The translations under genes were made by a program, and so were the position numbers. Below are positions 31,760-59,746 of a stretch of 64,000 nucleotides of DNA, piece by piece. The stretch is from Halosimplex salinum (GTDB lineage Archaea; Halobacteriota; Halobacteria; Halobacteriales; Haloarculaceae). The stretch spans positions 1 through 64,000 of the forward strand of contig NZ_QWGG01000005.1 in NCBI RefSeq assembly GCF_003730195.1, given 5' to 3'. The stretch's first letter is position 1. Every line of letters begins with the position of its first letter. The notes under the pieces are model-generated. The model was not told the DNA's origin, ran no database searches, and saw only the letters and a list, made by a program, of their open reading frames with translations.

Positions 31760-32512
31760 ATGGTCGACCTCTCGGTCTGCGTCGAGATGGTGTACGACGA
31801 CGAGCCCTTCGAGGCCCGGATCGAACGGGCCGCCGCGGCGGGCGCCGACGCCGTCGAGTTCTGGGGCTGGCGCGAGAAGGACCTGGACGCCATCGACGAC
31901 GCCGCCGCGGAAGCTGGCGTTCCCGTCGTCGGCTGTGTCGCTGGCGGGACGCTGACCGATCCAGCGGAAGCGGACGACGCCGTCGAGACGATCCGCGAGT
32001 CAATCGCGATGGCCGACGAACGGGACATCCCGACGCTGATCGCCACGACCGGCCCCGACCAGGACGGCCTCGACCGGGAGACCCAGCACGAGAATATCGT
32101 CGACGTGCTCTCGCGGGTCGCACCGGACGCCGAAGCCGCGGACGTGACGCTCGTGCTCGAACCGCTCAACACCGAGGTCGACCATCCGGGGTACTTCCTG
32201 ACGACCGCCGAGGAGGGCTTCGAGATCGTCGACGAGGTGGGGTCGCCGAACGTACGGCTCCTCTACGACGCGTATCACCAGCAGGTCACCGAGGGGAACC
32301 TCATCCAGACGATGACCGAGAACGTCGACCGGATCGGGCACGTCCACGTCGCGGACGTGCCCGGGCGTCACGAGCCCGGGAGCGGCGAGTTGAACTACGG
32401 GAACGTCTTCGCCGCGCTCGACGACGCCGGCTACGACGGCTACGTCGGCTGCGAGTTCTCCCCGACCGGCGACCCCGACGAGGCGATGGCCGACGTGCTC
32501 GCGCTGCGGTAG
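31760..32512 (+). CDS. Hydroxypyruvate isomerase-like sugar isomerase/epimerase (AP endonuclease 2 family)
   Basis: A 250-aa TIM-barrel protein. Hyi-type features are strong: LVLEPLN with Glu134, DHPGYFLTT, LLYDAYHQQVTEGNL, HVADVPGRHEPGSGELNYG, and GCEFSP with Glu232; these Glu residues are the usual metal ligands and catalytic pair. The family isomerises hydroxypyruvate or small keto-sugars, but many members act on other sugars in catabolic loci. The ATG follows directly on the Gfo/Idh stop, so both are translated from one mRNA and probably act in sequence. Confidence 0.85.
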   Translation: MVDLSVCVEMVYDDEPFEARIERAAAAGADAVEFWGWREKDLDAIDDAAAEAGVPVVGCVAGGTLTDPAEADDAVETIRESIAMADERDIPTLIATTGPDQDGLDRETQHENIVDVLSRVAPDAEAADVTLVLEPLNTEVDHPGYFLTTAEEGFEIVDEVGSPNVRLLYDAYHQQVTEGNLIQTMTENVDRIGHVHVADVPGRHEPGSGELNYGNVFAALDDAGYDGYVGCEFSPTGDPDEAMADVLALR

Positions 32513-32614: not shown

Positions 32615-34618
32615 ATGAGACCGACACGGAGTATCCCATCGATTCTCGAAAGCACCAGCCGCGGGCGGTTTCTCGGCGGCGTCTCCGCCGGATCGCTCCT
32701 GCTCGCGGGGTGTTCGAGCGGCGGCAAAACCGACACGGACGGCCACGCCGACGAACCGGAGGGCGCGAGCGGCGAACTCCTGACCGACGGCGGCATCGAC
32801 GTCGACGAGACGGACGACACCGGGCCACGCCGGATGGAGGCGCTGGACCGCGGCGTGGTCGCGGTGCCCGCCGAGGACGGGATTCTCGTTCGCTGGCGGC
32901 TGCTCGGGACCGAGCCGCGCGACGCCGCCTTCGACGTGTACCGTGACGGCGAGCGCGTGACCGACGAGCCCGTGACCGAGAGCACGAACTACCGCGACCC
33001 CGACGGCGAACCGGGCGACGCGTACGCGGTCGAGCGCGTCGACGGCGGCGGGCAGCGATCCGACCCCGTCGAGGCGTGGGACCGGGAGTACAGACGGATC
33101 CCGCTGGAGCGGCCGGACCCGGTCGAAGCGGCGGCGCCCGACGACGACTCGCTCGTCGCGTACCACGCGAACGACGCGAGCGTCGGCGATCTGACCGGTG
33201 ACGGGAGCCTCGACGTCGTCCTCAAGTGGTCGCCGGAGAACGCCAAGGACAACGCCCACGAGGGGTACACGAACCAGACGATCCTCGACGCCTACGAACT
33301 GGACGGCACCCATCTGTGGCGGATCGAACTCGGCCGGAACGTCCGCGCGGGCGCCCACTACACCCAGTTCCTCGTCTACGACTTCGACGGCGACGGACGG
33401 GCGGAACTCGCCGTCCGAACCGCCGACGGCACCGTCGACGGCGAGGGGGCGGTCATCGGTGACCCCGACGCCGACTACCGGAACGAGACCGGCCGCATCA
33501 TCGAGGGGCCGGAGTACTTCACGGTCTTCGACGGCGAGACCGGCGCCGCGCTGACGACGATCGACTACGAGCCCGCCCGCGGTGACATCGCGGACTGGGG
33601 AGACGACTACGGGAATCGCGGCGACCGGTTCCTGGCCGGCGTCGCCTACCTCGACGGCGAGCGACCGAGCATCGTCAACGCCCGCGGGTACTACGAGAAG
33701 ACGATGCTGGCTGCCTACGACTTCCGCGACGGCGAGCTCACCCAGCGATGGGTGTTCGACAGCACAGAGGGCAACGAGGCCTACGAGGGCCAGGGCAACC
33801 ACCAGCTGAGCGTGGCGGACGTCGACGGCGACGGCAGAGACGAGATCGTCTACGGCGCCTGCGTCGTCGACCACGACGGGACCGGGTTGTACTCGACGGG
33901 CTGGCTGCACGGCGACGCGCTCCACTGCGGCGACTTCCTCCCCGAGCGCGAGGGGCTGGAGGTGTACCAGGTCCACGAACCCGAGGACGCCCCCCACGGC
34001 GCGTCGATGCGCGAGGCCGGCACCGGCGAACTGATCTGGGGCGAGTACACTGGGACCGACACCGGCCGCGGGATGGTCGCGGACATCGACCCCGAACACG
34101 ACGGCGCCGAAGCGTGGGCGCCGGCCGGCGTCGGCCTCCACACCGCCGACGGCGAGCGGATCGGCGAGACGCCCGCGTCGTACAACTCCGCGGTCTGGTG
34201 GACCGGCGACTTGCGGCGGGAACTGCTCGACCACGACTGGGAGGGCGACGGGGTCGGCATCCCCACGATCGAGCGGTGGGACCCCGACGCGGGCGAGCTA
34301 GAGCGACTGGAGACCTTCGAGGGCACCCGGTCGAACAACTGGACGAAGGGCAACCCCTGTCTCTCTGGGGACTTGCTCGGTGACTGGCGCGAGGAGGTCC
34401 TCTTGCGCGAACCGGACAGCGAGGCGCTCCGGCTGTACGCCACGCCCCACGAGACCGGACACCGGATCCCGACGCTGCTGCACGACCCGCAGTACCGCCT
34501 CGCGCTCGCGTGGCAGAACGTCGCGTACAACCAGCCGCCCCACCCGAGTTTCTTCCTCGGCGTCGGCATGGACGACCCGCCGACGGCGGACCTCGAACTC
34601 GTCTCGACCGACGACTGA
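32615..34618 (+). CDS. PL11 rhamnogalacturonan lyase, exported lipoprotein
   Basis: A 667-aa beta-propeller lyase that cleaves the rhamnose-galacturonate backbone of rhamnogalacturonan-I by beta-elimination. After a lipobox LAGC (Cys33) and an acidic linker comes RRMEALDRGVVAVPAEDGIL, the usual PL11 start, then VYRDGERV, the repeated DGDGR-type calcium loops (FDGDGRAELAVRTADGT, DVDGDGRDEIVYG) and the GMDDPP end. The signal has SRGRFLGG where the neighbours have twin Arg, so it may use a variant Tat signal or Sec. Length fits the family. It is the clearest genetic evidence that rhamnogalacturonan-I is the target. Confidence 0.93.
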   Translation: MRPTRSIPSILESTSRGRFLGGVSAGSLLLAGCSSGGKTDTDGHADEPEGASGELLTDGGIDVDETDDTGPRRMEALDRGVVAVPAEDGILVRWRLLGTEPRDAAFDVYRDGERVTDEPVTESTNYRDPDGEPGDAYAVERVDGGGQRSDPVEAWDREYRRIPLERPDPVEAAAPDDDSLVAYHANDASVGDLTGDGSLDVVLKWSPENAKDNAHEGYTNQTILDAYELDGTHLWRIELGRNVRAGAHYTQFLVYDFDGDGRAELAVRTADGTVDGEGAVIGDPDADYRNETGRIIEGPEYFTVFDGETGAALTTIDYEPARGDIADWGDDYGNRGDRFLAGVAYLDGERPSIVNARGYYEKTMLAAYDFRDGELTQRWVFDSTEGNEAYEGQGNHQLSVADVDGDGRDEIVYGACVVDHDGTGLYSTGWLHGDALHCGDFLPEREGLEVYQVHEPEDAPHGASMREAGTGELIWGEYTGTDTGRGMVADIDPEHDGAEAWAPAGVGLHTADGERIGETPASYNSAVWWTGDLRRELLDHDWEGDGVGIPTIERWDPDAGELERLETFEGTRSNNWTKGNPCLSGDLLGDWREEVLLREPDSEALRLYATPHETGHRIPTLLHDPQYRLALAWQNVAYNQPPHPSFFLGVGMDDPPTADLELVSTDD

Positions 34619-34662: not shown

Positions 34663-36126
34663 TCAGTCCGCGAGGACCGCCTCGCGGTCGAGTTCGTAGT
34701 CGTCGAGCACCGAGGCGTCCTCGACGTCGTAGGCGTCGAGGTAGTCGCGCTCGATGGCGACGAGGTCGGCGAAGAGGTCCTGCGCCTCGTCGCGCTGGAC
34801 GGTGACGAGCGGCTCGTTGAGGAACGCCTGGAACGCCAGGTCGAGGTCGCCGGCGAAGCCGGCCTCGATCAGCGTCTCCTGGTTGTGGATCGCCCGCGTG
34901 ACCATGCTGCGGACCTGCCGCGGGAGCGTCCCCGCGGTGATCGGCGAGATGTCGTCGCCGGTGATCAGCGCGTTCGTCTCGACGACGGCGCCGTCGGGCA
35001 GGTCGGGGCACTGGCCGCGGTTCGGGTAGTTGACGTGGGTCTTCGTGGGCTCGATGCCCAGCAGCGCGCGCACGATGTCGACGACCTCCTCGCCCGACTC
35101 CGAGAGGTGGAACTCGCCGTCCTCGTCGCGGAACTTGTCCATCTTCGCCGGCGCCTCGCCGTCGCTCCGGCGTGCGGAACTCGGCGTCAGGCGGATGCCC
35201 CACCGTTCGACCTCGGCGGGCGTGTCCACCTCGAGGTACCACGGGACGAACTCCGCGAGGTGACGGTCGCCGGCGGCGGCGAACACGCCGAAGCGGTCGT
35301 ACAGGTCGAAGGCGACCTGGTCGTGGTTGCTCCAGTATGACTCGTCGGCCAGCTCACCGGACTCGAAGCCCGGGAGCGGCCGGTGGCGCTCCAGTTCCTC
35401 GTCGAGGTACTGGTAGACGTCGTGGCCGCGCCAGCGCGCCTCGTCGATCCACGTGAAGTGGTTGATCCCCTTCACGTTCACTGCGATCTCCGACCCCGAG
35501 ACGTCCTCGGCGGCGTCGATGTGCCGTTCGGCGACGTCAGCGAGCATGTGCTGGACGTGCGTCACCTCGTGGCAGAGGCCGATGGCGTTGATATCGGGGT
35601 ACTCCTCGTAGAGCGCCCGCGTGCAGACGGTCATCGGGTTGGTGTAGTTGACGACCCACGCGTCGGGGCACTGCTCGCGGACGGTCGCTGCGATCTCTCG
35701 GTACTGCGGGATCGAGCGCAGCGACCGGAAGACGCCGCCGGGGCCGACGGTGTCGGCGACGGTCTGGTAGATGCCGTACTCCTGTGGCACGTCGATGTCG
35801 TGGACGAACGTCTCCTCGGGCGGGTCCTGCGTCGAGCAGACCACGAAGTCCGCGCCGGCGAGCGCGTCGTCCATGTCGCGGTGGGCCTCGAACGTCCAGT
35901 CGCCGGGCACGTCCGGGCGGTCCATCACGTCGTTGGCGAGTTCGGCGTTCTCGACGGCCCCCTCGTGGTTCACGTCGTAGAGCGCGACGGTGCCCGAGAC
36001 GTCTTCGCACTGGGCGAGGTCGTTGATCAGCGTCAGCGCCCAGCCCTGGCTGCCGCCGCCGACGTATCCGATCCGAACGTCGGTCGCCGCTCCGTCGACT
36101 GGTGGCTCCGCTTGCAGCGAATGCAT
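34663..36126 (-). CDS. GH4 family glycosidase, probably alpha-galacturonidase
   Basis: A 487-aa cytoplasmic, NAD- and metal-dependent glycosidase. It has the dinucleotide-binding start (VRIGYVGGGSQGWALTLIND), VVNYTNPM, GLCHEV (metal Cys and His) and GINHFTW. GH4 covers alpha-glucosidases, alpha-galactosidases and alpha-galacturonidases; the pectin context favours galacturonate. A TATA box at 36150-36158 on this strand is centred 28 bp from the ATG at 36126, so that start is preferred over a GTG at 36135. It would act on imported galacturonate-containing oligosaccharides. It converges with PL11 across 44 nt. Confidence 0.85.
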   Translation of the reverse strand: MHSLQAEPPVDGAATDVRIGYVGGGSQGWALTLINDLAQCEDVSGTVALYDVNHEGAVENAELANDVMDRPDVPGDWTFEAHRDMDDALAGADFVVCSTQDPPEETFVHDIDVPQEYGIYQTVADTVGPGGVFRSLRSIPQYREIAATVREQCPDAWVVNYTNPMTVCTRALYEEYPDINAIGLCHEVTHVQHMLADVAERHIDAAEDVSGSEIAVNVKGINHFTWIDEARWRGHDVYQYLDEELERHRPLPGFESGELADESYWSNHDQVAFDLYDRFGVFAAAGDRHLAEFVPWYLEVDTPAEVERWGIRLTPSSARRSDGEAPAKMDKFRDEDGEFHLSESGEEVVDIVRALLGIEPTKTHVNYPNRGQCPDLPDGAVVETNALITGDDISPITAGTLPRQVRSMVTRAIHNQETLIEAGFAGDLDLAFQAFLNEPLVTVQRDEAQDLFADLVAIERDYLDAYDVEDASVLDDYELDREAVLAD

Positions 36127-36149
36127 GTATCCCACCCAGCGCCCCGGCG

Positions 36150-36324: not shown

Positions 36325-37326
36325 GTGTTACGAACTGCCATTATCGGGACCGGCGGCATCGGGACCCACCTCGCGCGCGAGGTTCGCGAGCACCCGGAGG
36401 GACAGATCGCGGCGGCGGTCGACGTGAACGAGGACGCGCTCGCCGACCTCGCGGCCGAACACGACCTCGACGAGTCGGTCCTGTACACCGACGAGGCCGA
36501 GATGTACGAGACGACAGATCTGGATGCGGTGATCGTCGCGACGCCGCCCGCGTTCCACGACGACCAGATCCACGAGGCGTTCGACCGCGGCCTGCACGTC
36601 CTCTGCGAGAAACCGGTCGTGATCGAACAGGCGGCCGCCCAGCGGCTCCGCGACCGGGTCGCCGAGTCCGACCTGGTGTTCATGGCCGGCTACCAGCGTC
36701 ACCTCAACCCCGGGTTCGTCGCGGCGTACGACCGCTATCACGACGAGGGGCAGGAACCGACGTTCATGACCGGCGAGCTGACCCAGGACTGGACGGGCCA
36801 CTTCGAGCGCGGGACGAACTGGCGAGTCGACCCCGACATCGGCGGGCGCGGGCACCTCTTCAGTGTCGGGACGCACGTCCTCGAGTCGGTGCTGTGGCTG
36901 TCGGGGCTGACCCCGACGGCGGTCAGCGCCGAGATGGACTTCTACGACGACGAGCAGTACATCGACACGAAGTCCTCGCTGACGGTCCGCTTCGAGAACG
37001 GCGCGGTCGCGAGCTTCGCCGACTCGGCGGTCGCGCCCGCGACTCGCGAGCACATCCACGTCTGGGACGACGAGGGCGCGATGTACCTGGAAGGCGTCGA
37101 CTGGGGGCAGCGCCACCTCACCGTCGTCGACGCCGACGGGAGCGAGCGGACGCCGGAGCTGGCCTACGACGAGGCGCCGAGCAAGTTCGCCGCGTTCGCG
37201 GAGGCCATCGAGACCGGGGACGAACCGCCCGCGACCGCAGAGGACGTCCTCGTCGTGACTGCGCTGCTCGACGCCGCCTACGAGAGCGCCCGGACCGGTG
37301 AACGCGTCACGGTCGACCTGGAGTGA
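36325..37326 (+). CDS. Gfo/Idh/MocA family oxidoreductase
   Basis: A 333-aa NAD(P)-binding sugar oxidoreductase with AIIGTGGIGTHLA (about residues 5-17), the CEKPVV motif (about 94-99) and the C-terminal substrate domain. It starts with GTG; no ATG precedes the Rossmann strand. It is only moderately similar in layout to the member at 30653 and is separately promoted. It is divergent from the GH4 gene across 198 nt. Sugar-acid or inositol-type substrates are typical; this one is unknown. Confidence 0.82.
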   Translation: MLRTAIIGTGGIGTHLAREVREHPEGQIAAAVDVNEDALADLAAEHDLDESVLYTDEAEMYETTDLDAVIVATPPAFHDDQIHEAFDRGLHVLCEKPVVIEQAAAQRLRDRVAESDLVFMAGYQRHLNPGFVAAYDRYHDEGQEPTFMTGELTQDWTGHFERGTNWRVDPDIGGRGHLFSVGTHVLESVLWLSGLTPTAVSAEMDFYDDEQYIDTKSSLTVRFENGAVASFADSAVAPATREHIHVWDDEGAMYLEGVDWGQRHLTVVDADGSERTPELAYDEAPSKFAAFAEAIETGDEPPATAEDVLVVTALLDAAYESARTGERVTVDLE

Positions 37327-37473: not shown

Positions 37474-38508
37474 ATGAAGCAAATCGTCCAGACGGGCCCA
37501 GCGTCCGTCGAAGTCCAGGAGGGAGAGCGGCCGTCACCCGGTCCCGAGGAGGTCCTCGTCCGGGTGCACACGGCAGGTATCTGCGGCAGCGACGCCCACG
37601 CCTACGAGTACGAGGGCGGGTACGACTGGATCGCCATGCCGCGGATCATGGGCCACGAGTACTCCGGCACCGTCGAAGCCGTCGGCGGCGACGTCACCAG
37701 TTTCGAGCCCGGCGACCGGGTCGTCGAGGAGCCGATCCACCACTGCGGGGAGTGTTTCCAGTGTCGCAACGGCGAGGAGAACATCTGCCAGAACTTCTCG
37801 ATCACCGGCATGCACCGCGACGGCGCCTACGCCGAATACACCGTCGTCGACCCCGAGCATCTGCACGCCGTTCCCGACGCGGTCCCGCTGGCCGACGCGG
37901 CGATCACGGAACCGCTGAGCATCGCCACACGGGCGGTGTTGACCCGCTCGTCGATCAACCCGGGCGACGACGTCCTCGTCGAGGGGCCCGGCCCGATCGG
38001 CGTGTTCACCGCCGCTGTGGCCGCCTCACTCGGCGCGAACGTCCTCGTCTCCGGCCTCGGCCAGGACGCCGCCGCTCGTCTCCCGCTCGTCGAATCGCTC
38101 GGCATCGATACCATCGACATCTCCGAGACGGACCTCGAAACCCACGCCGTGGCTCGGACCGACGACGTGGGGTTCGACGCGGTGTTCGACGCCAGCGGGC
38201 ATCACACGGGCGTGGAGACCGGCGTCGAGGTCGTCCGCAAGGGCGGCGAAGTCGTCGTCGTCGGCATCCCGCGCGAGCCCAGCGAACTCCTGATGACACC
38301 GGTCGTCCGCGGCGAGATCGACGTCGTCAGTTCCTACGGCTCGGACTGGACGAACTTCGAACAGGCCCTGCGGCTCATGGAAAACGGCGAGATCGACGCC
38401 GAGACCGTCGTCGACGACTCGTTCTCGACCGCCGATCCGACGGCCGCCTTCGAATCGTTCCTCGCCTCCGAAGTCGTCAAGCCGGTCTTCCGTTTCGCCG
38501 ACGACTGA
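37474..38508 (+). CDS. Zinc-dependent alcohol/polyol dehydrogenase (MDR family)
   Basis: A 344-aa medium-chain dehydrogenase related to threonine, sorbitol and galactitol dehydrogenases. Catalytic zinc residues Cys37 (GICGSD) and His61-Glu62 (GHEY), and the structural-zinc cysteines 91, 94, 97 and 105, are all present. The cofactor site is EGPGPIGVF. It would interconvert a sugar or keto-acid hydroxyl and ketone. A near-identical second gene begins at 63831. Upstream, a CTTTATGTG box (37415-37423) and a GAGAGGGA Shine-Dalgarno-like sequence about 12 nt before the ATG suggest a leadered mRNA, unlike most neighbours. Confidence 0.88.
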   Translation: MKQIVQTGPASVEVQEGERPSPGPEEVLVRVHTAGICGSDAHAYEYEGGYDWIAMPRIMGHEYSGTVEAVGGDVTSFEPGDRVVEEPIHHCGECFQCRNGEENICQNFSITGMHRDGAYAEYTVVDPEHLHAVPDAVPLADAAITEPLSIATRAVLTRSSINPGDDVLVEGPGPIGVFTAAVAASLGANVLVSGLGQDAAARLPLVESLGIDTIDISETDLETHAVARTDDVGFDAVFDASGHHTGVETGVEVVRKGGEVVVVGIPREPSELLMTPVVRGEIDVVSSYGSDWTNFEQALRLMENGEIDAETVVDDSFSTADPTAAFESFLASEVVKPVFRFADD

Positions 38509-38969: not shown

Positions 38970-39040
38970 TTCTTGTGAGACTACCGGAACGTCGTCGCGC
39001 CGTCGTCGCCAGGGGAGAGAGGGCACACTGCCCGATCGGT

Positions 39041-39057
39041 GTCCGGTATTGCCGGAA
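39041..39057. promoter_or_regulatory. Palindromic operator, copy B3
   Basis: GTCCGGTATTGCCGGAA matches copy A2 at 14 of 17 positions and carries T at the central base. It lies about 180 bp before the lyase start, the same distance as copy A3 from the dehydratase start. Confidence 0.65.
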
Positions 39058-39194
39058 GCACTTTCGACGAGTCGTCGGGTGTCCCACCGGCGGGCGGCGG
39101 ACGCGAGCGTGGGCCGTCGCTGGTGGGGTGCAGGTCGAACCGACCGGCCGGGACGACCGGTGGAGATTCCCAGCGAGAGGTTCTGCGGGGCGAA

Positions 39195-39203
39195 GCTATA
39201 TCC
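39195..39203 (+). promoter_or_regulatory. TATA box of the oligogalacturonate lyase gene
   Basis: GCTATATCC is centred about 20 bp before the ATG at 39219 and 35 bp before the ATG at 39234. The latter would have a leader of about 9 nt. Confidence 0.55.
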
Positions 39204-39218
39204 GCCGCGACGCCCAGG

Positions 39219-40424
39219 ATGTCTACACCTGCCATGCCAGAAACTATCGAACAGGGACCGCGAGCGGGCAGTCACTGGCCCGCCGAGGACGAGACGTACG
39301 CGGACCCGACGAGCGGCGCTCGCGTGCGCCGGCTGACGAGCTACCCCGGCGTCGGCGACTACCACCTCTACTTCACCGAGGACGGCTGGTACGACGGCGG
39401 CCGTCGCCTCCTCTTTCGCTCGGACCGGACCGGCTCGCGCCAGCTGCACTCGATCGACCTCGAATCGGGGCTGATCACGCAGGTCACCGACGTCGAGGGC
39501 TTCCGCGGCGGGACCTCGATCGACCACGACGCGGAACTCGTCTACTTCTGGGCGCGCGACCGGCTGGTGAGCCTGGACCTCGGGACGCTGCGCGTCGAGG
39601 GCGTCCACTACGAGGTCCCCGACGGCTGGACCGGCGGCTCGTTCGACGTGAACGCCGACGGGAGTCGGCTCTACGTCGCCATCGGCGAGGACGTGGAAGT
39701 GCCCGAGCGGGACGACAAGCTCTCGGGGACCTTCGAGGCCGCGCCGGACACGCGTATCCTGTCGGTCCCGACCGACGGCGGGGAGCCGGAACGCCTCAGG
39801 GAGGTCGACGTCTGGGCCAGCAGCCACGTCAACGCCTCGCCGACGCGACCGGACCTGTTCACCTACTGCGAGGAGGGGCCGTGGGACGCCGTCGAGAACC
39901 GCATCTGGTCGGTGAACGCCGAGACCGGCGAGACCTGGAAAGTCAGGGAAGTCCCCGACGCGGGCGGGGTCGGCCACGAGTACTGGATGCAGGACGGCGA
40001 GCGGGTCGGCTACCACGGCTCGCTGAAGGACCCGCAGGGCCGCGAGCGCGTCGACGACCCCGAGCCGTTCATCGGGAGCAGTCGCTACGACGACACGGAC
40101 CGCCGGGAGACCGCCCTCCCCGACGAGGTGTACGCACTGACGCACACCCACGCCAACTCGCCGGAGTTGCTGGTCTGCGACGGCACGTTCGAGGCGGTCC
40201 CGCACAGCTTGCTGTACCGGTGGGACGAGGCTGCCGGCGAGTACGAGGGCCCCCGCGTCCTCGCGACGCACGACTGGGACCACGCGGGACCGCACCCTCA
40301 CTCGCGGTTCAGCCCCGACGGCTCGCACGTGCTGTTCGACTCCGCTCGCTACGACGGGTCGAGCAACCTCTACCTCGCCGAGGTCCCCGAATTCGAGGAC
40401 CTGCCCGAGTACGAGAGCGACTGA
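39219..40424 (+). CDS. ogl: PL22 oligogalacturonate lyase
   Basis: A 401-aa cytoplasmic seven-bladed propeller enzyme that cleaves short oligogalacturonides by beta-elimination. Diagnostic blocks are YHLYFTEDGWYDGGRRLLFRSDR, SSHVNASPTRPDLFTYCEEGPW, RIWSVN, GHEYWMQDG with GYHG, and the metal-binding HPHSRFSPDG near the end. In the characterised family, His residues in these last two blocks and a nearby Gln bind Mn. The frame is open far upstream, but conserved sequence begins near GSHWPAEDETYADP. The ATG at 39234 is an alternative supported by TATA spacing. It is preceded by the operator-rich region shared with the dehydratase. Confidence 0.93.
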   Translation: MSTPAMPETIEQGPRAGSHWPAEDETYADPTSGARVRRLTSYPGVGDYHLYFTEDGWYDGGRRLLFRSDRTGSRQLHSIDLESGLITQVTDVEGFRGGTSIDHDAELVYFWARDRLVSLDLGTLRVEGVHYEVPDGWTGGSFDVNADGSRLYVAIGEDVEVPERDDKLSGTFEAAPDTRILSVPTDGGEPERLREVDVWASSHVNASPTRPDLFTYCEEGPWDAVENRIWSVNAETGETWKVREVPDAGGVGHEYWMQDGERVGYHGSLKDPQGRERVDDPEPFIGSSRYDDTDRRETALPDEVYALTHTHANSPELLVCDGTFEAVPHSLLYRWDEAAGEYEGPRVLATHDWDHAGPHPHSRFSPDGSHVLFDSARYDGSSNLYLAEVPEFEDLPEYESD

Positions 40425-40464: not shown

Positions 40465-43059
40465 TCACTCCGTCGGAGGGGCTGGGAGGTGCTCACCGAT
40501 GTATTCGAGACAGGCGATCACGTTCAGCGCCCAGATCGACACGATGTTCGTCTTCACGCCCGGGAGCTCTTCTATCGGAGACGGATACGCATGCTCGACC
40601 GTCTCCCGCTCCATCGGGAGCTCGACGCGCCGCTCGTCGTCGTACAGGAGGAGGTCCCACGCTCGCTCCGCCAGCTCCTCGTCGTCGTGAAGTTCCGCCG
40701 CGAAACCGGCCATGTTCGTCGCGTACATCGGGAGCTTGTCGAGCGAGTCGGCGACGCAGTCGGGGAGCCGCTCGTCCCGTGCCTCCTCGTCGAGATACAG
40801 CTCGCCCGTCTCCGCGAGCATTTCCTCCCACTCGGGGTCGTCGATCAGCGCGGCGAGTTCGGGCCAGAGCTGGGGCCCGCCCATGCAGTGGAGGAACGTG
40901 TGGCCGTAGTTTCCGTCGCCGATGTGGTGGAGTTCGCCGGTCTCGGGGTCGTAGCCGAACGTCGACCCCGAGAACATCCGCAACGGCATCTCTTTGATGC
41001 ACTCGATCCCCGTGCGGATCTTCTCCCGAGACTCCTCGGACTCGAACCGCTCCCACTCGGTCATCCAGTTCGCGGAGTACGACAGCCAGTCCGGGGCGAT
41101 CCTGGCGTGGGTCGGGTGGTCGTCGTCCGCGACGTGGTTCCGCATCGGATCGACGTCCAGCGTCGCGAAGTCGGCGTCGCGGACCTCCCGGAAGATCTCC
41201 CCGAGCCGTTCGTCGCCGCCGGTCAGGTAGTAGTAGAAGCGGTGGTGGGCGGTCGTGCTGATCCGCGGTTCCTTGCAGCCGCCGGCCCAGTGCAGGACGT
41301 TGTGTCGCGAGCCGAGCCCCGCGAGCGGCCCCTCGTGATACACGTCGACCTCGCTCGTGTGGCGGGTCTGTGCCTCCGCCAGTCGGAACACGTCGGCGCG
41401 CCCCGACCGGAGAAACGCGTACCAGAACCACATCGTCGGCATCTGTTCGGTGTTCTGCCAGGCGTACCCGCCGACGTCGTAGTACCAGCTGTGCCGGGTC
41501 GGATCGTATGTGTGCATGACGTCGCCGTAGTCCCAGAACCCGTACCACCGCCGTTGCTCGATCTCGTCCCGATAGAACGATATCGCGGCATCGAGTTGAT
41601 CCTCGATCCACGCCCGGGCCGGCGTGCTCCTGTCCTCGCGGCTCCACCGCCCGAACGCCCCCGTCTCGTAGTAGCGGTCAGGGTCACAGACCAGCAGCGA
41701 CGGAGCGCGGGCCTCGTCGGCACAGCCGAGCAACGCGTCCCGGTCGGGGACGTCGTCGAAGCAAAACAGCGTGAACTCGCTCGTCTTCGCGATGCCGCGG
41801 GGCGTGCTCAGTTCAGCGTCGACCCCGCCGTAGGCCGCGCCGCCCGTATCCCGCCCCGCTTCGTCGTACGGCCGCAGATCCATCGTCTCACCGTCCGGCG
41901 ACCAGAACCAGGCACGGAGCCGTGCCTCGTCGGCGAGCACGTCGGTCGCTTCGAGCGACGAGGGCTCCGTCTCCCAGAAGTCCTTCACGCCAACTGCGAG
42001 GCCGCCGTCGCTGTCGCCGACGAAGCCCAGCCCCGACGACCGCCGGCCGTGCGCCGCGTCGACCCAGCAGTAGTCCTCGCCCGCCGTCTTCCTGATGACG
42101 TGATGGTCGGCCGAATCCTGGACCAGCTTGAACCCGTTCCAGGGCGTCACGTCCTCGATCATCTCGGCCCACTCCTCGTCGTCGTCCGGCCGCGGATCGA
42201 GCGGCTCGCCGGCGATCTGGCGCTCGGCGCGCTCTCGATCGGGACCGAGGGCTCGCGGCGGCAACACCTGTGCGGGTTCGCGAAAGAGCCCCTCGTCCCC
42301 GGAGAACCGGACGTGGCGATTGTACGCCGGCCCGGCCATCGGAACGGCGAAGGACAGTCCCAGCCCCGCTATGAAATCCCGTTCGGGGTCGCCGTCGTAG
42401 ACGAAGGTGTGGGTCGCCTCGATGGACGCCACGCCGGCGTAGAACGTGAGATAGAGCGTGAACGGGAGCCACTCCTCCCCGCCGTCGGCCGCCTCGTGCT
42501 CGCCCTCGACCTTCACGACGGCCCGGATCGGCCCCTCCTGTTCGAGCGTGACGTCGTCGACGCGTCCCTCGAACCGCTCCTGCTCGGAGACGTCGGTGCC
42601 TGCCTCCTCGCGGCGGCGTTCCCGAATGCAGACGAGCCGTCCGTCGGTACAGACGACGCGCTGGTCCGTTTCGAGCAGCCCGATGACGGACGGCCCGTCC
42701 TTGTTCACCCGGCAGACCAGCCGACCCGTATCGACCTCGACGTGGTCGTCCGCGTCCGCTATCGTCAGTCGCTGGCCCGGAGTCGATTCGGGGCGCGCCG
42801 CTGTCTCGTCGGGACCGATCTCGAACGCGTCGGCCGTCTCGTCGGAGATTGTCGCCGCGTGGCCGGTCCACTTGACGCTCCCGTCCGGCCAGTACGCCGT
42901 CGGCCACGACTGGACCGGTACGGGCGTTCCCGCCCCGGTCGCCATTCCGAGGGCGTCGTCCCGGTCGAGTTCCCCCTCCGCCCAGGGGACGCCCCACGTC
43001 ACGCCGGTCGGCACCGTCGGCCGGTCCTCTAGCCAGTGCACAGCGGCTCCGAAGTCCAT
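40465..43059 (-). CDS. PL26/YetA-like exo-rhamnogalacturonan lyase
   Basis: An 864-aa cytoplasmic protein. The N terminus (VHWLEDRPTVPTGVTWGVPWAEGEL) and the VQSWPTAYWPDGSVKW block are typical of YetA-like proteins. Their fungal relative PcRGLX is an exo-rhamnogalacturonan lyase (PL26). A long helical toroid domain follows (about 460-860), rich in aromatic residues (SWYYDVGGYAWQNTEQMPTMWF, HWAGGCKEPRISTTAHHRFYYY). Without a signal peptide it would trim imported rhamnogalacturonan oligomers from one end. A TTAATT TATA box on this strand at 43082-43090 predicts a leaderless mRNA. The family call rests on pattern recognition; catalytic residues are not certain. Confidence 0.78.
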   Translation of the reverse strand: MDFGAAVHWLEDRPTVPTGVTWGVPWAEGELDRDDALGMATGAGTPVPVQSWPTAYWPDGSVKWTGHAATISDETADAFEIGPDETAARPESTPGQRLTIADADDHVEVDTGRLVCRVNKDGPSVIGLLETDQRVVCTDGRLVCIRERRREEAGTDVSEQERFEGRVDDVTLEQEGPIRAVVKVEGEHEAADGGEEWLPFTLYLTFYAGVASIEATHTFVYDGDPERDFIAGLGLSFAVPMAGPAYNRHVRFSGDEGLFREPAQVLPPRALGPDRERAERQIAGEPLDPRPDDDEEWAEMIEDVTPWNGFKLVQDSADHHVIRKTAGEDYCWVDAAHGRRSSGLGFVGDSDGGLAVGVKDFWETEPSSLEATDVLADEARLRAWFWSPDGETMDLRPYDEAGRDTGGAAYGGVDAELSTPRGIAKTSEFTLFCFDDVPDRDALLGCADEARAPSLLVCDPDRYYETGAFGRWSREDRSTPARAWIEDQLDAAISFYRDEIEQRRWYGFWDYGDVMHTYDPTRHSWYYDVGGYAWQNTEQMPTMWFWYAFLRSGRADVFRLAEAQTRHTSEVDVYHEGPLAGLGSRHNVLHWAGGCKEPRISTTAHHRFYYYLTGGDERLGEIFREVRDADFATLDVDPMRNHVADDDHPTHARIAPDWLSYSANWMTEWERFESEESREKIRTGIECIKEMPLRMFSGSTFGYDPETGELHHIGDGNYGHTFLHCMGGPQLWPELAALIDDPEWEEMLAETGELYLDEEARDERLPDCVADSLDKLPMYATNMAGFAAELHDDEELAERAWDLLLYDDERRVELPMERETVEHAYPSPIEELPGVKTNIVSIWALNVIACLEYIGEHLPAPPTE

Positions 43060-43156: not shown

Positions 43157-45952
43157 CTAGATCGTCAGCAGTTTCTCGAGGACGGCCTCCGAGACCGCTT
43201 GGTCGGGGTCGAACGCCGCCGACTCGGCGTACGCGACGAGCGACCGCCCGAACGCTCGCACGGCGGGGTCGTCGTCGGCCGCGAACAGATCGACCGCACA
43301 GACCAGCAGATTCCCGTCACCGACGGCCGATTCGAAGACGAGGCCCAGTCGCTGGTTGCGCTCGACGTTGTCGATCACGCGGACCAGCGGCTCGAAGTCG
43401 TCGGGCGCGTCGTCCAGCACGACCGCGCGGGCGTTCGAGAGGAGGTGCCACCACTGCCAGTCGCCGTGGCTGTCCGTCGGGAAGCCGTCGAGCAGGGGGT
43501 GATCGGGGTCACAGCGCGGGCCCATCGTCCCCGCGGGCGCGTTGCGCTTGAACAGCGCGTACGACCAGAAACAGGGGGCGAACGCCGACTCGACGGAGTG
43601 GCGCAGGTCCTCGTGGCGGGGGACGAGGATCACGTCTTCGCCCGCGTCGAGCAACTCGCGGGTCTCCGCGTTGAAGGCCCGGCGGACGGTCACCGCGGCG
43701 TCCGCGGACCCGCCGAACGCTCCCGCGTCGGCGTCGACAGCGGGCAGGTCAGCGGGGTACACCCACACGTCGTAGTCGGTGGCAGCACCGGTGGCCTCGA
43801 CGGTCACCGAGAGCGTGAGACGGACGGGCGCGTCGACGCCGTCGGCGCTCGCGAGGGCGTCGGCGAAGTCGATCTCGATGGGCCCGAGATCCACGAGTTC
43901 GCCCTGGGGTACGTCCGTGGCAGGGAGCGCTCCCGTCGCGACCACGGCGCCCGAGTCCTCGGACCCGTCGGCGGCTGTCAGCGTCCATTCGGCGACGGCG
44001 CTCTCGTGGCGCTCCGGGCCGAAGTGCGCCAGTTGCACGTCCGCAGAGACCGACTCGCCGGCCGAGACCGTCCGCGCGTCCAGGCGGACCAGCGGGACGC
44101 TCTCGGCGCAGAACCGCCGCCAGTCGGCGGGGTCGATCAGTCCCTTGGACTCGCGGAACGGGTCGAGAATCCCGACCAGCGCGGTCCCCTGTCCGGGGAA
44201 GTCCTCCAGTTGCAGGAGCTGGAACCCGCCGAACCCGGGCGTCCGCAGGGCGGCCTCGACCTCCTCGCGGTAACACTGCACCGAGAGGCGTCCTGAGGCG
44301 TCGGCAAAGTCGCCCGCGCGGTCCAGCAGGCCGTGGGCTTCGAGGTGGTCGCGCTTGAGTTCGAGGTTCCGGGGCGCGAGGACGCCGTCGTAGCGGTCCA
44401 GCCCGGCGAAGTCGGGGTAGGTCTGGTACTGCCCGATCTCGTGGGCGACGACGGGGACCGGGATGTCCTCGACGGCCTCGCAGTAGTCGGTCGTCGTCGC
44501 GGGCGGCGCCTCGTCGATGGCGGCCCCGCGGACCATCTCCCGGCCCGAGTCGGCGTCGGTCGGGATCGGCGGGACCGACGCGGTCGTCCAGTAGTCGTCC
44601 GCGTCGGTGAGCGTCGAGTCGCTGAGCCCGTTGTACGAGCCGCAGGCGTACAGCCGCCGCGGGTCCCGCTCCCGGAGGGTTTCGACCAGATCGCTCATCG
44701 CTTCGAAGTCGCCCGAGAGCTCGTTGCCCAGCGCGAACATGACGAACGACGGGTGGTCGCCGTACTCGTCGAGGATCCGCTCGGCCTCGGCGCGGTAGAA
44801 GGCGGCCGCGTCCGGGTCCTCGAAGGCGCCGCCGTTGTTCCACAGCGGGAGCTCCGGCTGGAGGTAGATCCCCAGTTCGTCGGCGGCGCGGAAGGCGGCC
44901 TCCGGGGGGCACCAGCTGTGGAACCGGTAGTGGTTGAGGCCGTACTCCTGTGCAGTCTCGAAGACCTCGCGCCACGCCGCCTCGTCGGTCGGCGGGTAGC
45001 CCATCTCCGGGAAGATACAGCAGTCGACGTTCCCCCGGAGGAAGGTGGTCTTGCCGTTGACCGCGAACTGCGTCCCGTCGCGCTCGAACGACCGGACGCC
45101 GAAGATCGTGTCGGTGGCGTGGGCGTAGTCGATGCCGTCGGCAGTCGCGTCCAGCGTCGCGGTCAGTTCGTAGCGGTCGGGGTCGAACTCGTCCCACCGG
45201 AGCGGGTCGCCGAGGTCGTAGTCGATAGCGAGGGTCGTCGACTCGCCGTCGACGCGAACGGACGCCGTCTGGGGATCGACGGCGTGGGTTCCGTCGGCGC
45301 TCTCGGCGGCCAGTTCGACTGACCCCTCGGCGGCCGCCCCCGTCCGGTTCCCGACGGTCACTTCGACGCGCGCGGTCCCGGCCGCGGGGTCCGTGGAGAC
45401 CCGACAGTCGTCGATCCAGACGGGGGCGGTGGCGACCAGTTCCAGGCCGCCGACGACGCCGTTCCAGTTGGTCTGGGTGTGTTCTGTCGCGGCGTGGGAG
45501 CGCTGGACGCCCGGGAACGCGACCGGTTCCGAGCCGGTGTCGATCCGGAGCGTCAGGGCGTGTTCGCCGGGGTCGAGGGCGTCGGTGAGGTCGTACTCGT
45601 GGGGCGTCGAGAGGCTGTCGTCCCGACCGGCAGGGTCACCGTCGACCCACACCCGGGTCGGACGGGTGCGTTCGAGTCGGAGGACGACGCGTCTGTCGGC
45701 CCACGCGTCCGGGATCTCGACGGTCGTGCGGTACCAGGCCGCGCCCTCGTACCGATACCGGCGGGTCAGGTGCCCCGGCGTCCGTTCGGTCGTGCGCTCG
45801 CCCGCCCCGGCCTCGTCGGTCGTCCCGGGGAGCGCGATGCTGTCGTCGAAGTCGGTCGACGGCGGTCGCTCGGCGTCCACTCCGTCGTCGGGGTCGAGTG
45901 TGAACTCCCAGCGACCGGCCAGATCGATCCGGTCGGTAACGGAATCGGCCAT
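43157..45952 (-). CDS. GH2 family glycoside hydrolase, beta-galactosidase-like
   Basis: A 931-aa cytoplasmic enzyme. Layout: jelly-roll sugar-binding domain (LAGRWEFTLDPDDG to about residue 190), immunoglobulin-like domain, TIM barrel, then extra C-terminal domains. The acid Glu lies in MFALGNELSGD (near residue 406). VVAHEIGQYQTYPDF (near 500) may hold the nucleophile. DECC-type placement is consistent with GH2, but the sub-family (galactosidase, glucuronidase, mannosidase) is not clear; galactan side chains of rhamnogalacturonan are a plausible target. A TATA box at 45976-45985 on this strand supports the ATG at 45952 over a GTG at 45958. Confidence 0.85.
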   Translation of the reverse strand: MADSVTDRIDLAGRWEFTLDPDDGVDAERPPSTDFDDSIALPGTTDEAGAGERTTERTPGHLTRRYRYEGAAWYRTTVEIPDAWADRRVVLRLERTRPTRVWVDGDPAGRDDSLSTPHEYDLTDALDPGEHALTLRIDTGSEPVAFPGVQRSHAATEHTQTNWNGVVGGLELVATAPVWIDDCRVSTDPAAGTARVEVTVGNRTGAAAEGSVELAAESADGTHAVDPQTASVRVDGESTTLAIDYDLGDPLRWDEFDPDRYELTATLDATADGIDYAHATDTIFGVRSFERDGTQFAVNGKTTFLRGNVDCCIFPEMGYPPTDEAAWREVFETAQEYGLNHYRFHSWCPPEAAFRAADELGIYLQPELPLWNNGGAFEDPDAAAFYRAEAERILDEYGDHPSFVMFALGNELSGDFEAMSDLVETLRERDPRRLYACGSYNGLSDSTLTDADDYWTTASVPPIPTDADSGREMVRGAAIDEAPPATTTDYCEAVEDIPVPVVAHEIGQYQTYPDFAGLDRYDGVLAPRNLELKRDHLEAHGLLDRAGDFADASGRLSVQCYREEVEAALRTPGFGGFQLLQLEDFPGQGTALVGILDPFRESKGLIDPADWRRFCAESVPLVRLDARTVSAGESVSADVQLAHFGPERHESAVAEWTLTAADGSEDSGAVVATGALPATDVPQGELVDLGPIEIDFADALASADGVDAPVRLTLSVTVEATGAATDYDVWVYPADLPAVDADAGAFGGSADAAVTVRRAFNAETRELLDAGEDVILVPRHEDLRHSVESAFAPCFWSYALFKRNAPAGTMGPRCDPDHPLLDGFPTDSHGDWQWWHLLSNARAVVLDDAPDDFEPLVRVIDNVERNQRLGLVFESAVGDGNLLVCAVDLFAADDDPAVRAFGRSLVAYAESAAFDPDQAVSEAVLEKLLTI

Positions 45953-45975
45953 CGCCACCAGAGACGACCGAGGTC

Positions 45976-48766: not shown

Positions 48767-49921
48767 CTACAGCGGGATCTCGCGGTCGCCGCCGTGGATC
48801 GACTCGCTGTCCCAGTACTCGTGGGTGGGCTCCTCGCGGAAACAGGCCGCCCGGTGTTCGCGCTCCTCGCCGCCGATGAGGTCGGGGTCGACCTCGGTGC
48901 AGACCTCGTGGGCCTTCGGACACGTCGTGTGGAACCGGCAGCCGCTGGGGATGTTCCGCGGGTCCGGCGCCTCGTCGGACATCATCGGCGACTCGTCGGT
49001 GATGGTCTCGCGGGCCTCGTCGGGGTCGAGCGGGAGCGACGCCCACTTGAGGATCTGCGTGTAGGGGTGGCTCGGGTCGTTGATGATATCGTCGGCCGAC
49101 CCGACCTCGACGATCCGGCCGAGGTACATCACCGCGATGCGGCCGTCCGCCTTGTCGGCGATGTACCGGGCGTTGGTGAGGTTGTGCGAGACGAACAGGT
49201 AGGAGGTCCCGAACATCTCCTGCAGGTCGAGCAGGAGGTCCATGATGTCGATGCGCAGGCTCACGTCCAGCGCCGAGACCACCTCGTCGGCGAGGATGAG
49301 GTCCGGCTCGAGCAGCATCGCGCGGATGATCGCCACGCGCTGTTTCTCGCCGCCGCTGAGCTCGTGGGGGTACCGCTCCATGTAGTCCTCCGGCGGGGCG
49401 ATGCCCGTGGTCTGGAGCATGGTCGAGATGCGCTCCTGCCGGTCGTTGAGGTCCATAGTCGGGTACCACAGCTTCAGCGGTTCGGCCAGTTGCGACCGGA
49501 TCGTCCGGTAGGGGTTCAGCGCCGCGTCGGAGTCCTGGTGGACGATCTGGAGCGCCCGACGGATGTCCTCGGCGTACACCTCGCCCGCGTGCTCGCCGCG
49601 TTCGACGGCCTCGATGTCGTAGCCGCGGTACTTGACCGAGCCGGCGGTGGGCTCCTGGAGCCCGATGGCGGTCCGGCCCAGCGTCGTCTTGCCCGACCCG
49701 GACTCGCCGATCAGGACGACGACGTCCTCCTCGCCGATCTCCAGCGAGACGTCGTCGACCGCGTGGACGGGTTCCTCGCCCATCCCGAGACGGTCGGTCA
49801 CGCTGTCGGGGAGCGCCGATTCGAGCAGCGACTCGTCCTGGTACTCCACGGAGACGTTCTCCATCGACAGCACCGGTTCGTCGTTGTCGATCACGTCCTC
49901 GTCCGTATCGATCGTGCTCAT
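48767..49921 (-). CDS. ABC importer ATPase, DppF type (second system)
   Basis: A 384-aa ATPase with Walker A GESGSGKTT (about residues 70-78), LSGGEKQR, Walker B LILADEVVSALD, and the Cys-rich tail CRFHTTCPKAHEVC. An insertion between the start and Walker A (SLLESALPDSVTDRLGMGEE) is unusual but also appears in the C-half of the fused ATPase as an acidic stretch. Conserved sequence begins at MSTIDTDED, so I chose the ATG at 49921, which overlaps the stop of the preceding ATPase by 4 nt (ATGA). It is the last gene of the permease/ATPase operon. Confidence 0.9.
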   Translation of the reverse strand: MSTIDTDEDVIDNDEPVLSMENVSVEYQDESLLESALPDSVTDRLGMGEEPVHAVDDVSLEIGEEDVVVLIGESGSGKTTLGRTAIGLQEPTAGSVKYRGYDIEAVERGEHAGEVYAEDIRRALQIVHQDSDAALNPYRTIRSQLAEPLKLWYPTMDLNDRQERISTMLQTTGIAPPEDYMERYPHELSGGEKQRVAIIRAMLLEPDLILADEVVSALDVSLRIDIMDLLLDLQEMFGTSYLFVSHNLTNARYIADKADGRIAVMYLGRIVEVGSADDIINDPSHPYTQILKWASLPLDPDEARETITDESPMMSDEAPDPRNIPSGCRFHTTCPKAHEVCTEVDPDLIGGEEREHRAACFREEPTHEYWDSESIHGGDREIPL

Positions 49922-50976
49922 TCTGAATCGTCCTCCGAGAGGCTGACGGGCAGTTCCTTCCGGGCGCGGTCCGGGTAGAAACACGCCACGTCGTGGTCGT
50001 CTTCCAGTTCGATCAGCTCGGGGTCCTCGATGGTACAGCGGTCGTCCGCGATGGGACAGCGCGGACTGTAGGAACACCCCGAGGGGATGTTGATCGGGTC
50101 CGGGCTCGACCCCTCGATGGTGGCGATGTCGTCGACCGCCATCGCCAGGTTCGGCGTCGACCGCAACAGCGCCCGCGTGTACGGGTGTGCACCCTCGTGC
50201 ATCACGTCCCGGGTCTCGCCGAGTTCGACGAACTCGAAGGCGTACATCACCCCGAGGCGGTCGACGAAGCCCGAGACCACCGGGAGGTCGTGGCTGATGA
50301 CGATCAGCGTGATGTCGTACTCCTCCTTGATGGTGTAGAGCAGGCGCAGGATCGACCGCTGCATCAGCAGGTCGAGCGCCGCCGTCGGCTCGTCGAGGAT
50401 CAGCACGTCGGGTTCGAGGAGCAGTCCCAGCGCGACCAGCGCCCGCTGTCGCTGTCCGCCCGAGAGCTCGTGCTGGTACTCGTCGAGGATCGCGTCGGGG
50501 TCGAGGTTGAGGTCCCGCATGATAGAGCGGGCCCGCTCCATCCCCTCGTCCTTGTCGGCGTTGTGCGCCGAGAGCGTCTCCTCGAAGTGGGTCCGGATCG
50601 GCTTGGTGGGGTTGAAGGAACTCATCGCGCCCTGGGAGACCAGCGCGATCTCCTCCCAGCGGAGCCGCTTGGTGTCTCCGCCCTCCAGTTCCGTGATGTC
50701 GATCGGATCGCCCTCGTCGGGGTAGTAGGTGATACTCCCCTGGAGACGTCCCGGTTCCTCGACGGCGTCCATCAGCGTCGAGGCGAACATCGACTTGCCC
50801 GACCCGGACTCGCCGACGATGCCGAGGGTCTCCCCGCGGTAGATGTCGAGGTTGATCTCGTTCAGGACACGCGCCTGGCCGCGACCCATTTCGTACGTGA
50901 CGGTGGCGTCGCGGACCTCCAGGACGGTGTCGCGGTTCTCCTGCGGTCGGCCGGTCGCGAATTCTGATTCAGACAT
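49918..50976 (-). CDS. ABC importer ATPase, DppD type (second system)
   Basis: A 352-aa ATPase with GESGSGKS, HELSGGQRQR and VLILDEPTAALDLLMQRS, plus the CSYSPRCPI tail. It is clearly paralogous to the N-half of the fused ATPase at 12144: GAMSSFNP, RTHFEETLSAH, PTAALDLLMQRSI and AHPYTRALL are shared. It overlaps the DppF gene by 4 nt and begins 6 nt after the permease stop. Confidence 0.92.
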   Translation of the reverse strand: MSESEFATGRPQENRDTVLEVRDATVTYEMGRGQARVLNEINLDIYRGETLGIVGESGSGKSMFASTLMDAVEEPGRLQGSITYYPDEGDPIDITELEGGDTKRLRWEEIALVSQGAMSSFNPTKPIRTHFEETLSAHNADKDEGMERARSIMRDLNLDPDAILDEYQHELSGGQRQRALVALGLLLEPDVLILDEPTAALDLLMQRSILRLLYTIKEEYDITLIVISHDLPVVSGFVDRLGVMYAFEFVELGETRDVMHEGAHPYTRALLRSTPNLAMAVDDIATIEGSSPDPINIPSGCSYSPRCPIADDRCTIEDPELIELEDDHDVACFYPDRARKELPVSLSEDDSE

Positions 50977-50982
50977 GTGTGA

Positions 50983-52035
50983 TCACTGCTGGAATCCCAG
51001 CTGGGAGACGCCGCCTTCTTCGATGTCGGTCTCGTCGATGTCCTCCTCCACGTCGGCCTTGCGCGCCTCGTGGCGCGCCCTGACGCGCGGGTTGAAGACC
51101 TGGTCGAACGCCTGCGCGAGCAGCGTCAGCCCGAAGGTCAACATCGCGATGGTCAGGGCAGGCACGAGCAGCCAGTGAGCGTTCTCGAACGACGCGAGGA
51201 TGTTCGAGTTCTCGTAGGCGCTGTTGAGGACGACGCCCCAGTTGGCGCTGGTGTAGGGCAGCAGCCCCAGGAAGTACAGGCCGACCGACGCGAAGATGAC
51301 CGAACGTGCGGTCGACATGAACCGCAGCGTCACCAGCGGAAGCAGGTCCGGCAGGACCTGCTTCATCAGCACCGTCGAGGTCGACTGTCCCATCGTCCGG
51401 GAGGCCTCGACGTACTCGACGTTGCGGAGCGGGAGGACCTGCGCGCGGATCCCGCGAGCCAGGCCCGCCCACGCCTGGACGGTCAGGATGACCCCGATCA
51501 GGTAGGGGTTGCGCGGCTCGATGATCGCCGCGAGGATCAGGAGTAGCGGCAGTGCCGGGATCGACGCCACCACGTCGGTGACCGTCATGAGGATCTTGTC
51601 GGTGTTGCCGCCGGTGTACCCGGAGACGAGGCCGACGACGACGCCCAGCGTGTTCCCGAAGATGGCGCCCGCGAGCATCATCTTCAGCATCTTGGGCGTC
51701 GCGTGAGCCATCAGCGGCAGGAGGCCGCGCCCGACGCCGTCACTGCCCAGCAGGTACCGGAGGTCAGGTTGTTCGAGCGGGCTCAGGAGTCGGTTGATCG
51801 GGTCGACCGACGGCTCGGGGATGACCACGACGCCGACGGTTCCCACGAGGACGTAGAACGTCACCAGGAGCAGGCCGAACCGGCCGCGGTAGTCGCTCCA
51901 GAGGACCCGCAGCGGCGCGACGACCCAGCGACCGAACACGACCTCGTAGATGTCCATCGCGGTCGCGTCGTAGTCGGACTGCGATCTAAACGGCGATTCG
52001 TCGTCTTTCTCGGCCGGAGATTCTCCAGTTCCCAT
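50983..52035 (-). CDS. ABC importer permease, DppC type (second system)
   Basis: A 350-aa integral membrane protein. A short charged N terminus precedes the first membrane segment (LLLVTFYVLVGTVGVVVI, about residues 54-71). The EAA loop VEASRTMGQSTSTVLMKQVLPDLLP lies near 205-229. Features match the DppC-type permease at 10919, including LYFLGLLPYTSANWGV against LYFLGVLPFSDANWGV. It follows the DppB-type gene after 6 nt. Confidence 0.9.
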   Translation of the reverse strand: MGTGESPAEKDDESPFRSQSDYDATAMDIYEVVFGRWVVAPLRVLWSDYRGRFGLLLVTFYVLVGTVGVVVIPEPSVDPINRLLSPLEQPDLRYLLGSDGVGRGLLPLMAHATPKMLKMMLAGAIFGNTLGVVVGLVSGYTGGNTDKILMTVTDVVASIPALPLLLILAAIIEPRNPYLIGVILTVQAWAGLARGIRAQVLPLRNVEYVEASRTMGQSTSTVLMKQVLPDLLPLVTLRFMSTARSVIFASVGLYFLGLLPYTSANWGVVLNSAYENSNILASFENAHWLLVPALTIAMLTFGLTLLAQAFDQVFNPRVRARHEARKADVEEDIDETDIEEGGVSQLGFQQ

Positions 52036-52041
52036 ACGTGA

Positions 52042-53061: not shown

Positions 53062-53086
53062 TGCTATCGCATGGCACAAGCTACCG

Positions 53087-53098
53087 GGATAAAAAGCT
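53087..53098 (-). promoter_or_regulatory. TATA box of the second ABC operon
   Basis: Minus-strand GCTTTTTATCCC is centred about 31 bp before the ATG at 53061, giving a leader of only a few nt. Confidence 0.65.
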
Positions 53099-53263
53099 TT
53101 GGTAACGACCCTCAGGCGCCGGATGCGCGGCGTCTCAGCTGTCGGGGGGAGGCGAGTCGCGGTCGAGGAGCGGATCGGGCGCGGCGGGCCCGTCTCGTCG
53201 GCTGTGACACGGCGGGGGCCTTCCGGGCGGGCGGAGAGTAGCGGGGCTGTTCGGCCGGACGGC

Positions 53264-53536
53264 TCAGATCGATTCGCCTTCCTCGACGATGCGCTGGCGC
53301 TTCCGGTAGATCATGTAGCCGCAACTGACGGCGATGACCGCGCCGAGGGCGCCGTACGCGAGGAGTTCGCCCATCGACAGGACCGCCGTGAGCACGAGCA
53401 CGACCCCGAGAGCCGCCCCGACGTAGTAGGGCGTGTTGCTCCGGACCTCTTTGCCGCAGTTCGGACAACTGTCGGCGTCGATCGGGAACGTTTCGCGGCA
53501 CCGTCGACACTCGATCTTGTTACCGTCAGCGCTCAT
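53264..53536 (-). CDS. Membrane protein with N-terminal zinc ribbon
   Basis: A 90-aa protein. Four cysteines in two CxxC knuckles (C10, C13, C24, C27) form a rubredoxin-like zinc ribbon, followed by two membrane segments (about 37-52 and 56-73) and a basic-acidic tail. Haloarchaea have many such zinc-ribbon membrane proteins without known role. I chose the ATG at 53536 because the 13-residue upstream extension would not fit the family. Confidence 0.75.
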   Translation of the reverse strand: MSADGNKIECRRCRETFPIDADSCPNCGKEVRSNTPYYVGAALGVVLVLTAVLSMGELLAYGALGAVIAVSCGYMIYRKRQRIVEEGESI

Positions 53537-53609
53537 ACGTGCTTGATTCGCTGGCCCGGACTTAAACTTGTACACTCATCCGGGGACGACGGGGGAGCGC
53601 CGCGGTCGG

Positions 53610-53678
53610 GCCCCTCGTGCTGGGTGCGGCCGGATCCCTCGTACTGAGCGCGGTCGCTCCCTCGTAGCGGGCGCGGAC
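53610..53678. repeat. Degenerate tandem repeat of about 23 bp
   Basis: Three imperfect units, each beginning CCCTCGT and containing a GCGCGG or GTGCGG core, lie between the zinc-ribbon gene and the MoxR gene. Confidence 0.4.
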
Positions 53679-53706
53679 GGCGACGACGAAACGGCGGAGG
53701 AGAGCG

Positions 53707-59743: not shown

Positions 59744-59746
59744 GCG

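Follow-up and report, generated by a model that had tools for sequence, protein, structure and literature searches.

A candidate PL26 exo-rhamnogalacturonan lyase in a rhamnogalacturonan/rhamnose island of the haloarchaeon Halosimplex salinum

The window analysed here, a stretch of 64,000 nucleotides from Halosimplex salinum, carries a minus-strand open reading frame at 40465-43059, which starts with ATG and encodes 864 amino acids. Its composition is haloarchaeal, like that of the other genes of the window (D+E 0.20, R+K+H 0.12, GC3 0.89). The following features were identified around it, some of which recur in the PL26 locus of another haloarchaeal genome, labeled G345:

4870..6114, plus strand: enolase-superfamily sugar-acid dehydratase (PF13378)
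7960..14288, plus strand: Dpp/Opp-type ABC transporter A, complete (SBP_bac_5 PF00496, two permeases PF00528 x2, fused ATPases PF00005)
14370..14672, minus strand: L-rhamnose mutarotase (PF05336)
14747..16363, minus strand: GH28, polygalacturonase/rhamnogalacturonidase type (PF00295; no signal seen)
18938..21706, plus strand: GH78 alpha-L-rhamnosidase (PF17389 etc.)
30653..31759, plus strand: Gfo/Idh/MocA oxidoreductase 1 (PF01408)
31760..32512, plus strand: AP_endonuc_2 TIM-barrel sugar isomerase/lyase (PF01261)
32615..34618, plus strand: PL11 rhamnogalacturonan lyase (PF18370/PF21348, E 1.8e-237)
34663..36135, minus strand: GH4, LplD-type alpha-galacturonidase candidate (PF02056/PF11975)
36325..37326, plus strand: Gfo/Idh/MocA oxidoreductase 2 (PF01408; conserved in G345)
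37474..38508, plus strand: zinc-type alcohol/sugar dehydrogenase, ADH (PF08240/PF00107; conserved in the G345 PL26 locus)
39039..40424, plus strand: PL22-like oligogalacturonate lyase (PF14583, 102 bits, cut-off 30)
40465..43059, minus strand: PL26 (PcRGLX/YetA-like) candidate exo-rhamnogalacturonan lyase (864 aa, without a signal peptide)
43157..45958, minus strand: GH2, BT4151-like exo-beta-1,4-galactosidase candidate (NF049890, 760 bits, below the cut-off of 1500)
48767..62173, minus strand: Dpp/Opp-type ABC transporter B (two ATPases, substrate-binding protein at 59966-62173)

The GH2 gene lies directly upstream of the PL26 gene, on the same strand and with a gap of 97 nt, and the two are likely co-transcribed; the best solved relative of its product is 8u01 (E 7e-161). 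For the GH4 protein, the closest solved relative is the B. subtilis entry 3fef, titled 'lplD, alpha-galacturonidase' (E 8.5e-110), with the next match at E 2.6e-26. The GH28 protein matches NF051861 (246 bits) and NF049898 (120 bits), both below cut-off, and the best match of the dehydratase is to L-rhamnonate dehydratase (NF011968, 254 bits, below the cut-off of 393). The true start of the PL22-like gene is probably downstream of the listed GTG. In transporter B, one permease was identified by Pfam and one by similarity, and MoxR, DUF58 and DUF4129 genes are interleaved; in the GC-rich stretch between this transporter and the GH2 gene (46000-48700), the two ORFs tried gave no Pfam domain. Because PL11, GH4, GH78, rhamnose genes and transporters surround the PL26 gene, I read the region as a rhamnogalacturonan/rhamnose island of haloarchaeal type, where PL26 would have its place as an end-trimmer. 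The window also contains, at 23410-26955, an adjacent beta-helix protein and GH43 protein, both ending in ricin-type lectin domains, the GH43 having a twin-arginine-like N-terminus; a sulfatase is likewise found within the island.

The first-pass annotation had matched the N-terminal blocks of the PL26 protein to YetA-like proteins, and proposed a profile search for the corresponding domains. That search (hmmscan) places all three PcRGLX Pfam domains on the ORF, in order, near complete and far above their cut-offs (E 1e-29 to 1e-147):

residues 5-81: PF19501 PcRGLX_1st, N-terminal RIFT barrel (101 bits, cut-off 22.1)
residues 99-444: PF21345 PcRGLX_2nd, central beta-sandwich (373 bits, cut-off 23.5)
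residues 453-858: PF21346 PcRGLX_3rd, C-terminal alpha/alpha toroid (492 bits, cut-off 23.8)

The N-terminal likeness is thus real, but the match spans the whole protein and is strongest in the C-terminal domain. NCBIfam models gave no match to this ORF. With phmmer, residues 4-858 align to the exo-rhamnogalacturonan lyase PcRGLX of Penicillium chrysogenum (5xq3, 5xqg, 5xqj, 5xqo; E 8e-155). A chance or partial match is ruled out by three domains that span the full length. The PF21346 profile also finds a match in the B. subtilis control genome, as expected from its YetA.

I then compared the protein with solved structures. An AlphaFold model, generated from 25 aligned sequences, has a mean pLDDT of 82.8 and a pTM of 0.87, although pLDDT falls below 50 at the active-site segments 398-413, 509-537 and 585-592. 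In a Foldseek search, the first 13 matches are all to 5xq3, 5xqg, 5xqj or 5xqo (TM 0.88-0.90), entries whose PDB titles read 'PL 26 exo-rhamnogalacturonan lyase'; against 5xq3_A, TMq is 0.90 and TMt 0.86, at ∼33% identity, and the next distinct fold is that of the GH38 mannosidases, with TM no higher than 0.3. The entry 5xqo, titled as a tetrameric substrate complex, differs from the wild-type PcRGLX sequence by one Tyr to Phe change, at chain position 437 (own count). This tyrosine aligns with Tyr410 of the window protein, and is kept in 52/52 proteins of an alignment comprising the window protein, that of G345 and 50 of the 80 named-genome loci described below. The same alignment has 75 invariant positions, many of them within residues 505-600. 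The ORF is therefore a member of the PL26 (PcRGLX/YetA) family, complete and with the catalytic tyrosine conserved; domains, full-length match, fold and tyrosine all uphold the original assignment. Compared with PcRGLX, it has the same three domains and differs in sequence (∼33% identity), in its acidic composition and in its archaeal origin, its activity being predicted.

In order to determine how widespread the family is in haloarchaea, PF21346 was searched in several overlapping genome samples. A single copy is found in the genome itself, and the domain occurs in 1/8 genomes of the genus, 1/146 of the family, 2/391 of an even class sample, 1/392 of a phylum sample and 2/125 of the family of G345. 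Such rarity, seen across these samples, rules out PL26 as a general haloarchaeal trait. PL11 was found in 23/391 class-sample genomes (21 over the cut-off, some weak partial matches included), and both PL26-positive genomes of that sample are also PL11-positive (hypergeometric p 0.003, from only two positives). Among the confirmed matches of a scan of named genomes (the best 80 of 554) there is one archaeon, Halovivax sp. KZCA124 (70% identity), followed by Paenibacillus at 48-53%. In a quick tree (LG+G4, midpoint root, SH-aLRT only), the three canonical archaeal PL26 proteins, from the window, KZCA124 and G345, form one clade (SH-aLRT 100) amid mostly Bacillota sequences. This single archaeal clade among Bacillota-type PL26 proteins, with Paenibacillus as the nearest outsiders and no copy in 7/8 genomes of the genus, suggests that the gene was likely acquired from bacteria.

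A divergent haloarchaeal subtype was also identified, in two copies: one on the Halomontanus rarus plasmid NZ_CP119797.1 at 610381-612909 (locus L095, 19914-22442), the other on chromosome 2 of Halovivax KZCA124 (locus L100, 9624-12173). The two are 98.8% identical between genera and 31% identical to the window protein. The same 17 of the 75 canonical-invariant positions are changed in both, the tyrosine is kept, and both are surrounded by GH78, GH2 and SDR genes. This suggests a recent island transfer, perhaps with another substrate.

The canonical PL26 proteins of KZCA124 (chromosome 2, NZ_CP071598.1) and G345 are ∼70% identical to that of the window over their full length. Besides Dpp transporter genes, which both loci share with the window, each has a selection of the GH78, ADH, Gfo and PL22-like genes, and the gene order is rearranged. 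On the G345 PL26 contig, the counterparts of the transporter B ATPases and permeases are 62-72% identical; PL11 is absent from the compared 100 kb of this contig, with one located further along it. The plasmid pHALXA01 of Halopiger xanaduensis bears a similar island, with an ABC transporter, PL11, GH4, TIM barrel, Gfo, ADH and PL22-like genes, its annotation also including rhcD, an LLM oxidoreductase, an SDR and a GH43. No PL26 is listed in that stretch, and of the 10 plasmid records that match the window PL26, none is this one. In both islands, a Gfo/Idh oxidoreductase, a TIM-barrel isomerase and an NAD-type GH4 (30653-32512 and 34663-36135 in the window) are found beside PL11, a group that could provide an oxidation-elimination route for uronyl oligosaccharides. 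YetA and the yes/yet/lpl cluster of B. subtilis provide a further comparison: B. subtilis has a PF21346 protein, and the window likewise has a PL11 related to YesW and YesX and an LplD-type GH4. The window differs in its Dpp/Opp-type ABC transporters, in the GH2 beside PL26, and in lacking a GH105 in the island.

PL26 and PL11 have been reported in haloarchaea before. One study lists both among the lyases of haloarchaeal isolates (PMC9726719), and another lists PL26 among the families of Natronoglomus (PMC10963439); PL11 and GH105 are described for Haloterrigena turkmenica in PMC3102087. "PL26 in an archaeon", the emphasis of the first-pass annotation, is therefore not new, and the idea of a first archaeal PL26 was rejected. 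The literature searches listed no paper on the biochemistry of an archaeal PL26. As for growth, PMC9726719 states that no such isolate grew on pectin, polygalacturonate or rhamnogalacturonan. In the available text of PMC12343721, where no mention of PL26 was found, one Natrarchaeobius strain shows marginal or absent liquid growth on pectic polymers, and the introduction notes that evidence for haloarchaeal growth on these is lacking. In the window, a single archaeal island holds what looks like a complete set for the rhamnogalacturonan-I backbone (PL11, PL26, GH4, GH78 and import). Given these published growth results, it would make sense to use a strain bearing this island to decide whether haloarchaea grow on pectic polymers.

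The failure of isolates with PL11 and PL26 to grow on rhamnogalacturonan, for which the authors propose an unknown activity, also bears on the substrate. A PL26-fold lyase could retain the same chemistry yet target a non-plant rhamnose/uronate glycan of saline habitats, such as an algal, microbial or archaeal exopolysaccharide, and the sulfatase, the ricin-lectin proteins and the hypersaline setting would be consistent with this. However, PL11, LplD-type GH4, PL22-like, GH78, GH28 and rhamnose genes make up a standard rhamnogalacturonan-I/pectin set, and bacterial PL26 proteins have the 75 invariant positions in common with that of the window, whereas the divergent haloarchaeal subtype does not. 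I therefore consider a non-plant target quite unlikely, and retain rhamnogalacturonan-I as the probable substrate.

The first-pass annotation had also paired PL26 with an exported endo-acting PL11, and a PL11 is indeed found in the same island, at 32615-34618. Inspected by eye, its start, MRPTRSIPSILESTSRGRFLGGVSAGSLLLAGC, shows a hydrophobic stretch followed by the lipobox LAGC, with RGR in place of the twin arginine RR; the N-terminus (...RGRFLGGVSAGSLLLAGC) appears Tat-like, with an imperfect motif. This PL11 matches both YesX (E 4e-239, 799 bits) and YesW (E 3e-221, 740 bits). It lacks the YesX insertion PPGndgmsY (a gap of five plus two residues), which is also missing from YesW, but has in common with YesX a second insertion, around the HDW segment. 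The PPGndgmsY insertion is the loop that makes YesX exolytic; endo action is thus the better guess for the window PL11. In PL26, a signal peptide is absent and the first domain begins right at the N-terminus. Since PL26 is signal-free, and PL11 bears a putative export signal but not the YesX insertion, the best reading is that an endo-acting PL11 would work outside the cell and an exo-acting PL26 inside it, both activity and location being predicted. An ordinary PL26 exolyase acting on the same side as PL11, either because PL11 is itself a YesX-like exolyase or because an export route of PL26 has gone unrecognised, would fit the higher YesX score and the common HDW-segment insertion, but is quite unlikely given the missing PPGndgmsY insertion and the contrast between a PL26 that is signal-free from its first domain and a PL11 with a lipobox. 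A second full-length PL11 is present in the genome (G000, contig C28, 110178-111671), as part of a larger protein whose N-terminus is of the twin-arginine type.

Taken together, the ORF very probably encodes a functional-looking PL26 exo-rhamnogalacturonan lyase that works in the haloarchaeal cytoplasm. In the proposed pathway, the exported, lipid-anchored PL11 would cut the rhamnogalacturonan-I backbone outside the cell, and the resulting oligosaccharides would be imported by one or both of the Dpp-type ABC transporters. By homology, PL26 would then release unsaturated GalA-Rha units in the cytoplasm by beta-elimination, probably attacking at the reducing end and tolerating galactose on rhamnose, as is reported for PcRGLX (Kunishige 2018). 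Removal of galactose would fall to the co-oriented GH2, that of saturated galacturonate ends to GH4/LplD, and rhamnose would be routed via the mutarotase and the dehydrogenase/dehydratase genes. The unsaturated uronate may be removed by a GH105-like enzyme encoded elsewhere in the genome. No GH105 or GH88 was found in the window island, and the genome has a single GH88/105 match, on contig C26 (5.8e-56). This protein matches YteR/GH105 structures with a best E of 1.5e-30, the match to YteR itself being moderate (E 5.5e-26), and its neighbours, judged by eye from the ORF starts only, are not pectin-like.

I also asked how often these partners accompany PL26 in the best 80 of 554 named-genome loci, with flanks of up to 10 kb, some ended by contig ends. 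PL11 is near PL26 in 27/80 loci and GH105-like genes in 19/80, while a GH2 of the BT4151 type is found in 2/80 and an LplD-type GH4 in 1/80; the MoxR and DUF58 genes of the window, of housekeeping type, were near PL26 in 0/80. One can envisage a cytoplasmic finishing line built around a horizontally gained PL26, in which exolysis that tolerates side chains works together with the GH2 galactosidase of the same transcript, while the NAD-dependent GH4 and the Gfo/TIM-barrel enzymes take the place of a clustered GH105, possibly for a saline non-plant rhamnose-uronate glycan. I regard this extended scheme as unlikely.

Finally, a relic of a second PL26 was identified in G345, on contig C43 at ∼127778-127948 (locus L089). 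It encodes 57 amino acids with an internal stop, is 75% identical to residues 363-419 of the window protein, and is separated by ∼7 kb from the intact PL26 gene of that genome.
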